Source of the DNA: Encephalitozoon hellem ATCC 50504
Taxonomy: Eukaryota; Microsporidia; Unikaryonidae
Length of the DNA: 64,000 nucleotides
NCBI RefSeq assembly: GCF_000277815.2
Contig: NC_018479.1
Coordinates: 176,866-240,865 of the forward strand
Direction: 5' to 3'
Each line of letters starts with the position of its first letter. The stretch's first letter is position 1. Of this stretch, positions 20,421 to 22,889 are shown one piece after another. The notes below the pieces were generated by a model that saw only the letters and a program-made list of their open reading frames with translations, was not told the DNA's origin and searched no databases. The position numbers were made by a program, and so were the translations under genes.

Positions 20421-20594
20421 CTAAACATCCTGGTCCCGTCTGCCGCGCCTCTTTTTCTTCTGCTCCAGCTCCTTCAAGTATTCGTCTACCGCTCTTATTT
20501 CATCGATTATCGATTTTCTTCTTTTCTCAGCCTTTTTCAGAAGAATATTCACGTTTTCTGCTATTCCTCTGATTTTCTTGGCGTTGTCGCACAT
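20421..20594 (-). CDS. Small basic coiled-coil protein, unknown
   Basis: 57 residues, unrecognised. A central helix of about 40 residues with heptad-like leucines and isoleucines (N-I-L-L-K-K-A-E, then D-E-Y-L-K-E-L-E-Q) is followed by a highly basic tail (K-K-K-R-R-G-R-R). The ATG at 20594 is preceded by GGGATCCC ending six bases upstream, the same C/G-run context seen at most starts in this window. The frame is open for 19 codons further upstream, but only from a TTG. It sits 31 bp beyond the start of the GlnRS gene on the same strand. A small nucleic-acid-binding or complex-subunit protein is conceivable. It could also be a chance frame; comparison with other Encephalitozoon genomes would settle this. 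Confidence 0.42.
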   Translation of the reverse strand: MCDNAKKIRGIAENVNILLKKAEKRRKSIIDEIRAVDEYLKELEQKKKRRGRRDQDV

Positions 20595-20983
20595 ACTATA
20601 GGGATCCCTGCGGCCGTTTCTTCTTTTGTGCCGTGGATGGATGCCAGACAATACATGGCCTGACTTTCAAGACATCAACCAGATGCCGACCCGTCAAACC
20701 AATCCTAGTCTGACATTTATCTTAATATTTTGCACATCTAGATCAAAACTAAATTAATTATCTTATAGTAGTAAATCACCTGTCCAGAAATCCATATACT
20801 GTATATTGGCGAATCGAGCAATATGTGCCAGGCATATCCATAAGCATTATATGATAAATTCGTCAATGATATATAGGGTTCCCTTTATGGAAATGACATT
20901 TATGAAGAAGAATGGAATCTTCCATTGCGCTTATGGTTGGTTTAAGGTATGGAATATAATTTGGCAATGACCCCGACTCTGTT
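20595..20983. other. Long intergenic region upstream of the first homeobox gene
   Basis: At 389 bp this is long for this genome. It is AT-rich and holds no convincing gene. A 27-codon open frame at 20887-20970 begins at an ATG a few bases after CCC and ends 13 bp before the homeobox ATG; it could be a short upstream frame or an unrelated peptide. TAAT-type runs (AAATTAATTATC near 20751-20763) and two TGACA pentamers (20711-20715, 20894-20898) are possible homeodomain sites. I see no tRNA or intron consensus here. Confidence 0.6.
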
Positions 20984-21439
20984 ATGTCAAAGTTGCCTGG
21001 TCTTGTATCTTCGCGGATCAATGAAATAAGGAGGATTTATGTGGAAGCAAACAACAGGATTGTTGATGAGATGGACTCAATGGTGGACAAGTTTGTGAAG
21101 AGTACTGGAGGCATCCCGGATATTTCTCCGGAAGTCAGTGCATATCTAGAAGAGAGGATTAGGCGCATCCGTGAGTTCGTTGTTGACAGCATAGGGTTCT
21201 CTATAAGCGAGTTCAAGACCTTGTACAATCCCAATGGAAGCGAGAATGCAAAGTCAAGAAGATTCCCGAAGTTCATAACCGAGGCACTGGAAAGAAGTTT
21301 CGAAGTTGACCAATATCCATCTGAGGCGGAAAAGGCGAGGCTTGCAAGAGTGTGTAAGCTCTCGACCAAGCAAATAAATAACTGGTTTACGAACAAAAGG
21401 AATAGAAGCAAAGGCCATGACGGGAGTAGGCAGTATTAG
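20984..21439 (+). CDS. Typical (non-TALE) homeodomain transcription factor of a mating-type-like pair
   Basis: 151 residues. The C-terminal homeodomain (about 87-143) has the recognition helix with W134-F135-T136-N137 followed by K-R-N-R. Spacing between helices 1 and 2 (L-E-R-S-F then E-V-D-Q-Y-P) is that of a 60-residue typical homeodomain, without the three-residue TALE loop. The N-terminal 80 residues are helical and could mediate dimerisation. Its neighbour at 21987 is a TALE homeodomain gene on the same strand. A typical plus TALE pair is the composition of fungal HD mating-type loci, and a published survey of E. cuniculi homeobox genes proposed such a locus. The ATG at 20984 follows CCCC. 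Likely a nuclear DNA-binding regulator; targets unknown. Confidence 0.9.
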   Translation: MSKLPGLVSSRINEIRRIYVEANNRIVDEMDSMVDKFVKSTGGIPDISPEVSAYLEERIRRIREFVVDSIGFSISEFKTLYNPNGSENAKSRRFPKFITEALERSFEVDQYPSEAEKARLARVCKLSTKQINNWFTNKRNRSKGHDGSRQY

Positions 21440-21564
21440 CTTGTAAGGAAGAGCTGTGTATGATTTTAATATAATCTATGTATGTATTTCTTTGAAGTAA
21501 AGTAAGGGGACAAATTAACTTATCTTTTCATAAGAGGCCAATAAGCCGCCGGCCAAATCCAATC

Positions 21565-21578
21565 CCATACCGGTATGG
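21565..21578. promoter_or_regulatory. 14-bp perfect palindrome
   Basis: CCATACCGGTATGG reads the same on both strands. It lies 126 bp past the stop of the first homeobox gene and 409 bp before the second. A symmetric site of this size is what a homodimeric DNA-binding protein would use, but no binding protein is known to me and the assignment is by shape only. Confidence 0.35.
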
Positions 21579-21732
21579 CTTGATTGACCCAAAACCTATG
21601 GTTTCAAAATGGGTGGTTAGCTTAGATTGTTAGACCTTGAGGAGGACATACATGTCGCCTGAGCCTCCGGATGCAAGAACAAAAATGAGCCCGTTGCTAA
21701 TGTGTACAGAGAAAGGTATAAGATTTTAATTG

Positions 21733-21749
21733 CTAATTTAAACAATTAG
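21733..21749. promoter_or_regulatory. Inverted pair of TAAT homeodomain core sites
   Basis: CTAATT and AATTAG face each other with a five-base spacer. TAAT/ATTA is the general core of typical homeodomains, and the first gene of this pair encodes one. The region is AT-rich, so a single core is unremarkable; the symmetric pair is the reason for listing it. Confidence 0.3.
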
Positions 21750-21887
21750 TTGTTTGGTGTAATATGTACCACTACAGACACACGGGAAAGCCTGCCCTGA
21801 TGCATAATGCCAGGAAATGCATAGGCATCTCCCAAGTAGCTGGAAAGACCTTGCCTTGGGCTCGGACTGCTCTGGCTTATTTACTTC

Positions 21888-21900
21888 TGTCATATTGACA
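21888..21900. promoter_or_regulatory. Inverted repeat of TALE homeodomain core TGTCA
   Basis: TGTCA-TAT-TGACA lies 87 bp upstream of the TALE homeobox ATG. TGTCA/TGACA is the established core site of TALE homeodomains (TGIF/MEIS type). Two cores arranged symmetrically with a three-base gap, directly upstream of a TALE gene, suggest autoregulation or control by the homeodomain pair. By hand estimate an inverted pair with such a short spacer would arise by chance in roughly one per cent or less of spacers this long. Confidence 0.4.
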
Positions 21901-21986
21901 CAATTGAAATATTAAATTATAAAACCTCTATCAAACAAGATTAATTAAGCCACCATAAGACAATTAGATAAAACAGAACGAATGGG

Positions 21987-22568
21987 ATGGAGGCCATGAA
22001 CACAATAATGGACATTTTAAACAGAGTCGTGCGTGCGGAGGAAAGCTACTTCACCGACGGAGCTGGCAGAGAAAAATTGTTGGAGGACATGAAGCAGCTT
22101 CGCAAAGAATACAAGGCTTCAATGCCCAGTAATGCCGGAAGAGAGGGAATAAAGTTCAAAATGGCACTATTGTTTGTTCTTGGGAAGGTAAAACATAAGA
22201 TTCTGTTTGAGGACAGACTTATGGAGGTTATAGACTCCGAGATGACTTTCATTAAAGGATGTGTGAAAAGCATAATCTCTGAGCCTATAAGGATCGGCCC
22301 TGTAGAGGCTACCAAATACGTTCAGCAGGAGGCGGAGCACAAGTGCTCTAAGCCAAAGACCAGAGCCAACTTCCCGATGGATACATCCCAACTTCTGAGA
22401 TCCTGGCTCAAGGAGAACATGGATAATCCATACCCGTCAGATGCAGAAAAAGCCTATCTTTGCCAGAAAACCGGGCTTGGGCCGGCACAAATCAACAACT
22501 GGTTCATAAATGCCAGGAGAAGAATTCTGCCGTTCATGAAAGGAAAGTGTACCAATTTCAGCAAATAA
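21987..22568 (+). CDS. TALE homeodomain transcription factor of a mating-type-like pair
   Basis: 193 residues. The homeodomain (about 120-182) carries the TALE hallmarks: the P-Y-P loop (148-150), three extra residues between helices 1 and 2, and W172-F173-I174-N175 with Ile at homeodomain position 50, then A-R-R-R. The N-terminal 110 residues are helical and charged, possibly a dimerisation or Meis/PBC-like region. With the typical homeodomain gene 547 bp upstream it forms the two-class pair seen in fungal HD mating-type loci, here in tandem rather than divergent. The ATG at 21987 is followed by a second in-frame ATG three codons later. It lacks the C/G run common before starts in this window, which may indicate different transcriptional control. 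Confidence 0.92.
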   Translation: MEAMNTIMDILNRVVRAEESYFTDGAGREKLLEDMKQLRKEYKASMPSNAGREGIKFKMALLFVLGKVKHKILFEDRLMEVIDSEMTFIKGCVKSIISEPIRIGPVEATKYVQQEAEHKCSKPKTRANFPMDTSQLLRSWLKENMDNPYPSDAEKAYLCQKTGLGPAQINNWFINARRRILPFMKGKCTNFSK

Positions 22569-22889
22569 ATTTAAATGGATGCATGGTGGAATCGCTTTTT
22601 TGTTAACGGTATGTAATTGAAACTTCAAGGCCAACAAATCACAAGAAAAGGCACACCAGGCCAGGCCAGGCCATTCGTCTAAAGCAGAGACATGAGACCG
22701 TAAATCCTTATTCCTCAGGTAGGCGGCGTGTGCCAGCCAGGCTTCAGTGGGCAAAAGCAGCCCGTGATGTCGAGAATAGCTGAGCGGGGAAACCCAGAAG
22801 ACACGGGCTATCCTATACTTTTAATCAATTATCTGTAACCATTTATTTTACGGACTACCATTGGCGCAGGCTCAGAGTAGGTTTTCCAT
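22569..22889. other. Spacer between convergent genes containing a GC-rich island
   Basis: At 321 bp this lies between the convergent TALE homeobox and SCCPDH-like genes. The ends are AT-rich; the middle (22651-22810) is about 57% G+C by hand count and rich in inverted repeats, described as a separate candidate RNA. A short tandem of GGCCA-type units (three copies, about 22658-22672) is included. No tRNA cloverleaf or credible protein frame was found. Confidence 0.6.
22651..22810. ncRNA. Candidate structured non-coding RNA (GC-rich island)
   Basis: This 160-bp block stands out in composition from AT-rich flanks. It contains an 8-bp perfect stem AGCCCGTG (22759-22766) with CACGGGCT (22802-22809) enclosing a GGG-AAA-CCC mini-hairpin. 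There is an alternative GGGC/GCCC hairpin (22749-22752 with 22760-22763) and a GGCGGC/GCCaGCC hairpin near 22722-22738. On the minus strand the 8-bp stem is followed by a T-rich run, as at a polymerase III terminator, so the strand is undecided. It matches no tRNA, snRNA, SRP or RNase P landmark that I can recognise. Composition plus stems is the only evidence. Confidence 0.28.

Follow-up and report, generated by a model that had tools for sequence, protein, structure and literature searches.

A tandem homeodomain gene pair in Encephalitozoon hellem that may be a heterodimeric life-cycle regulator and is probably not a segregating mating-type locus

Whether microsporidia have sex, and how, is an open question for which few candidate regulators are at hand. 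Fungal HD mating loci pair a TALE gene with a loop-less homeodomain gene. The window analysed here, a stretch of 64,000 nucleotides (C11:176866-240865 of the 2.25-Mb genome in 12 contigs), contains this same combination side by side, and the pair is one of those few candidates. An earlier note on this DNA pointed out the combination and likened the pair to a mating-type locus. The observation is correct, and the mating-locus idea is already published: the available portion of Lee et al. 2010 (PMC2866331) describes three homeodomain clusters in E. cuniculi and credits the proposal of a mating locus to Buerglin 2003. We ask here whether the pair is best understood as such a locus. On our data it looks less like a mating-type locus and more like a conserved developmental regulator of two parts.

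Two intact homeodomain genes and their families

The two homeobox genes are adjacent, intact and in tandem on the forward strand, as the earlier note had it (Table 1). Gene 2 scores above the curated cut-offs of two Pfam families, Homeobox_KN (75.0 bits) and Homeodomain (28.7 bits). Its homeodomain (residues ~122-185) has three extra residues, with the PYP motif, between its first two helices, together with Asn47, Ile50 and Arg54, so that both the loop and the Ile50 of the earlier description are seen. A TALE-type recognition helix has Asn47, Ile50, Asn51 and Arg54. With its PYP insertion and a recognition helix of this type, gene 2 is a member of the TALE superclass. A family search returned 294 matches, and general TALE proteins are in the majority among the best 120; the best 31 of the 294, taken from these 120, were aligned, and Asn47, Ile50, Asn51 and Arg53-55 are invariant in all of them (31/31). 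The protein is 86% identical to its relative in E. romaleae, 76% to that in E. cuniculi and 73% to that in E. intestinalis. Since the orthologues in three other named Encephalitozoon species begin at the second methionine, the true start is probably 21996 (190 aa), and the central spacer measured to this point is 556 bp. Two differing TALE proteins of Hepatospora eriocheir (P0036 and P0039) share a longest contig of 39,834 bp, which suggests a TALE duplicate in that species.

Table 1. The homeobox pair and its spacers, in window coordinates
Feature	Position	Strand	Remarks
Spacer 5' of gene 1	20595..20983		389 bp, up to ATG of 57-aa ORF; 38% GC
Gene 1, HD-1 / "homeodomain protein class 2" family	20984..21439	+	intact ORF, 151 aa
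Spacer between genes, 5' of gene 2	21440..21986		547 bp; 39% GC
TGTCATATTGACA, everted TALE-type TGACA half-site pair	21888..21900		pattern TGTCA-N3-TGACA, central spacer
Gene 2, HD-2 / TALE family	21987..22568	+	intact ORF, 193 aa as called
Spacer 3' of gene 2	22569..22889		321 bp

Gene 1 likewise exceeds the curated cut-offs of Homeodomain (50.9 bits) and Homeobox_KN (47.7 bits). Its homeodomain (residues ~89-145) has no loop and carries Asn47, Thr50, Asn51 and Asn54. Neither gene 1 nor any of its seven homologues in the homeodomain alignment has the three-residue insertion, and gene 1 is for this reason classed as TALE-like and not as TALE. Identity to the relatives in E. romaleae, E. cuniculi and E. 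intestinalis is 87%, 78% and 74%, respectively. Of 63 matches at E <= 0.01 (the window's own included), 44 were aligned; those left aside are one fragment and weak matches, some of them plant KNOX proteins. The family ranges from Encephalitozoon to Mitosporidium, with members in Nosema, Vairimorpha, Hamiltosporidium, Hepatospora and Edhazardia, and the named aligned members are all microsporidian. Asn47, Thr50, Asn51, Lys52, Arg53 and Asn54 are invariant throughout (44/44). On sequence comparison, then, each gene is placed in a family that is widespread among microsporidia and whose recognition residues are invariant among the aligned members, a point that is new here and that yields a short list of such residues. 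Two differing gene-1 homologues, P0147 and P0148, are both recorded with a 5,051-bp contig and may be tandem copies, alleles or a coincidence.

The class of the gene 1 homeodomain deserves some care. The earlier note called it typical, a description that holds only in part, since the recognition helix is TALE-like. Identity is 38-46% to PBX1, KNOX, TGIF1, MEIS1 and the gene-2-type homeodomains, 32% to yeast alpha2, 26-30% to Antp, En and MATa1, and 22-34% to the genome's other nine homeodomains; the nearest of the non-family sequences compared are PBX1 and KNOX. These identities and Asn47 favor a TALE-like character, against which alpha2, at 32%, is unremarkable and DUX4 heads the list of solved structures matched by sequence, ahead of Exd/PBX1. 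Since Foldseek also ranks PRH and DUX4 first for the predicted structure, the TALE-likeness is not clear-cut. In trees built from few alignment columns, typical homeodomains are split from gene 1 plus TALE with support of 51/80 and, in a second tree that leaves out the two yeast sequences and carries a long-branch warning, 98/95. These trees are unrooted with three groups, from which a sister pair is not readable, and they do not prove TALE membership. Judged by identity, gene 1 is likely a TALE-like homeodomain protein without the diagnostic loop.

The single-chain model of gene 1 (from 44 sequences; pLDDT 83.8, pTM 0.44) predicts two long N-terminal helices (residues 4-41 and 49-80) and the homeodomain. 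That of gene 2 (31 sequences; mean pLDDT 86.0, pTM 0.50) predicts three confident N-terminal helices (residues 2-98), a low-confidence linker and the TALE homeodomain. Such helices in both proteins would suit dimerization. The N-terminal domains are unrelated to each other (hhalign probability 0.4%) and have no match to plant KNOX (0.3-0.4%), so that a shared TALE dimerization module was not found. PBC or MEINOX/KNOX N-terminal homology is missing among the best 25 of 35 Pfam families for gene 2 and the best 25 of 77 for gene 1. The N-terminal divergence of the two proteins is correlated across 28 species pairs (r 0.96), as would be expected from shared phylogeny alone.

Linkage across microsporidia and the surrounding DNA

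Linkage in other genomes was inferred where records of gene 1 and gene 2 share the exact size of their longest contig, a match that does not show orientation. By this measure, of the 11 gene-2 records with identities of 48% or higher (one of them the window's own), 7 have a gene-1 partner, the shared sizes being 278853, 230122, 277983, 31389, 2369, 34279 and 41408 bp; on the contig of 2,369 bp, the two genes would have to be close neighbors. The other four are E. cuniculi, two records on contigs below 2.4 kb, and P0023, which sits on a 79-kb contig and has no gene-1 partner. For the E. cuniculi gene 1 no contig is given; its locus tags, if rightly assigned, are consecutive. Counted from the gene 1 side, 7 of 13 records have a gene-2 partner by the same contig size, and P0003 (63 kb) and P0011 (11 kb) stand without one that is perhaps hidden in the 90% clusters. 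Among the more distant gene-2 records that were aligned (P0025-P0044, 20 in all, nine of them on contigs of 8.5-252 kb), no longest-contig size matches that of any gene-1 hit. Linkage of the pair looks confined to one group on these records and, because the 20 distant records and P0023 show no such match, partnership of the proteins would not require adjacency of their genes. No relatives of the pair were confirmed in viral contigs.

The spacers around the pair are real, and the earlier note's norm of tens of bases fits the median gap of 62 bp in the window (n=48). All three are within the six largest gaps (chance ~0.001, a post-hoc figure). The gap list leaves out ORFs below 60 aa and gives 594 rather than 389 bp upstream of gene 1, because a 57-aa ORF falls under this limit. 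This lysine-rich ORF (20421-20594), flanked by the tRNA synthetase gene and gene 1, is of unsure gene status, and its one Pfam match, KELK, is sub-threshold. We considered the wide spacers as a mark of a mating locus and rejected them in this role, since the other homeobox genes usually have long upstream gaps too: those of nine others in the genome measure 228, 299, 295, 393, 277, 184, 113, 349 and 22 bp, at least 184 bp in seven of the nine. The 547 bp upstream of gene 2 are the maximum for homeobox genes genome-wide; the 389 bp upstream of gene 1 have a counterpart in one gap of 393 bp and would become the longest, at 594 bp, only should the 57-aa ORF be no gene. Homeobox genes of this genome thus commonly have long DNA upstream, which gives no evidence for mating.

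TALE homodimer sites have the arrangement TGACA-N2-TGTCA, of which the genome has a single instance, at C11:160487, beyond the window. The central spacer contains instead an everted pair of half-sites, TGTCATATTGACA, and the exact pattern TGTCA-N3-TGACA has its only genomic occurrence there, at 21888. This pattern was picked after we had seen it and has no statistical weight, its reversed control likewise turns up once, and the spacers of the pair show no enrichment of TGACA half-sites (p 0.18), two of which lie 5' of gene 1; the site is accordingly kept as no more than a lead for autoregulation. The spacers have no Rfam match to a structured RNA, there is no tRNA gene in the stretch around them, and folding z-scores for 22640-22830 are -1.11 and 0.15 on the two strands. 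The neighbors are, on one side, a class I Glu/Gln-type tRNA synthetase, a proteasome subunit and a PAP2 protein and, on the other, a saccharopine-dehydrogenase-like protein, a protein without Pfam match, a CCCH zinc-finger protein and a weak GHMP-kinase match. No mating-gene match was found among the eight neighbors of the pair.

Mating type or life-cycle regulation

Alternative alleles or idiomorphs are the property that defines a mating-type locus. One assembly was analysed here, and the comparison comes from the E. cuniculi literature. The pair is likely, by elimination, the counterpart of ECU10_1470/1480, tags that would belong to the E. cuniculi proteins sharing 78% identity with gene 1 and 76% with gene 2: the three published clusters appear to have counterparts at C3:66-67 kb (convergent), at C4:110 and 120 kb, and in this pair, and we assign the tags because the other two clusters match C3 and C4. 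It is at this E. cuniculi locus that the idiomorph test was made, and the available portion of PMC2866331 reports that distinct alleles or idiomorphs were not evident in three E. cuniculi isolates (four according to the Figure S4 legend). The Encephalitozoonidae are described, in the portion of PMC10845963 available, as diploid with heterozygosity below 0.5%. The mating-type reading of the earlier note is therefore upheld as to gene classes and published proposal and weakened as to idiomorphs; their absence, which that note itself said would tell against it, is partly borne out, in a sister species, by the findings of Lee et al. Expression data on the pair were not found in the literature searched.

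Like this pair, the basidiomycete HD1/HD2 locus (U. maydis bE/bW and kin) consists of two adjacent homeodomain genes of two classes. The present pair differs from it in being tandem and not divergent, as the earlier note recognized, in the lack of idiomorphs reported in the available E. cuniculi text, and in having no fungal mating-protein domain among the best 25 Pfam families per gene (of 35 and 77). Closer in phylogeny, Paramicrosporidium saccamoebae has adjacent HD1/HD2 homologs (PSACC_01945/01946) for which the accessible part of the paper gives no allelic divergence. That part calls their organization basidiomycete-like and not conserved in Microsporidia, a statement modified by our data, since a linked pair does exist in one microsporidian group and is tandem here. 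In comparison with the PBX/MEIS and KNOX/BELL systems, gene 2 stands near TGIF/MEIS and the gene 1 homeodomain nearest PBX1 and KNOX. Unlike these, gene 1 is loop-less with DUX4 as its best PDB sequence match, and no KNOX homology was found in the N-terminal domains, that of gene 2 having no TALE match among the matches listed in comparison with TGIF1/MEIS. PBC and MEIS/KNOX homology is reported from several lineages, and not from Fungi, in the available text of Joo et al. 2018 (PMC6219170).

We put the probability at about 0.5 that the pair is a heterodimeric life-cycle regulator and not a segregating mating-type locus. The two proteins would dimerize with each other through their predicted N-terminal helices, gene 2 would read TGACA-type sites as other TALE proteins do, and the long spacers may carry regulatory input. 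By analogy with the PBX/MEIS and KNOX/BELL dyads or the fungal HD1/HD2 pairs, the pair would work with both partners in one genome and might switch a step of the life cycle, such as the move to sporogony, through a developmental target programme. As both partners occur in one genome without known alternative alleles, pairing would be set by expression or stage and not by the fusion of cells that carry different alleles. A developmental switch is favored over a mating locus because, in the published portion available, none of the alternative versions to be expected of a mating-type locus were found among strains of the sister species. In close relatives, the shared longest-contig sizes suggest that the linkage is kept.

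It seems rather improbable that the two are independent transcription factors, neighbors by chance in one clade and without any partnership, although adjacency among close relatives only and unrelated N-terminal domains would fit this. The homeobox pair at C3:66-67 kb, convergent and apparently paralogous, might also speak for it, so that clustering may reflect family history. Yet the inferred linkage persists to ~48% identity in seven records, while a 2025 survey (available portion) describes microsporidian genomes assembled to chromosome level as rearranging too quickly for their ancestral linkage groups to be reconstructed, and the TALE gene would lie next to one of the ten other homeobox genes by chance in ~1% of cases, assuming 1,725 genes. 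An HD-type mating-type locus, homothallic or a relic from a fungal ancestor, we hold to be unlikely. The reported absence of idiomorphs in E. cuniculi isolates and of allelic divergence in Paramicrosporidium (both from partial texts), the tandem orientation, the modest similarity of gene 1 to yeast a1 (30%) and of gene 2 to alpha2 (34%), the absence of any linkage seen for 20/20 distant gene-2 records and the lack of a mating-gene match among the eight neighbors all count against it, and this outweighs the adjacency of a TALE and a loop-less homeodomain gene, the published proposal, the basidiomycete-like arrangement in an early relative, and the presence in the genome of an HMG/TPT cluster and a Spo11-type gene. 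Tandem orientation, neighbors, a1/alpha2 similarity and wide spacers add nothing for mating.

Local tandem duplication, with gene 1 as a copy of gene 2 that lost its loop, is very improbable. The two homeodomain families do align (hhalign probability 99%, 43% identity), and gene 1 is farther from the other homeodomains of the genome, but both families extend far past the linked clade, the N-terminal domains are unrelated, and gene 1 is equally close to PBX1, KNOX and gene 2. Returning to the life-cycle regulator, we consider it a long shot that this is a two-part TALE switch with one loop-less partner, descended from an ancient eukaryotic haploid-diploid heterodimer and now serving sporogony or meiosis without mating types. 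If true, the pair would be a living intermediate between the PBX/MEIS-KNOX/BELL dyads and the fungal HD mating loci.

Other sex-related and homeobox loci in the genome

At C6:157.1-159.8 kb (L017-L019), two HMG boxes above and a third below the cut-off lie ~1 kb from a TPT transporter; by its HMG boxes and TPT transporter this cluster resembles the published microsporidian sex-related locus, and it does not share a contig with the homeobox pair. The Spo11-type (TP6A_N) gene is located on C4. No STE2/STE3 match was found in the genome, nor in the control genomes. The convergent homeobox genes at C3:66.3-67.4 kb (L013/L015) have similar homeodomains, are probably paralogs and likely correspond to ECU03_0600/0610. 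A further homeobox gene (L006, C6:60034-60204) may correspond to ECU06_0735, an E. cuniculi ORF that, according to the available portion of PMC3629993, was first detected by RNA-seq.
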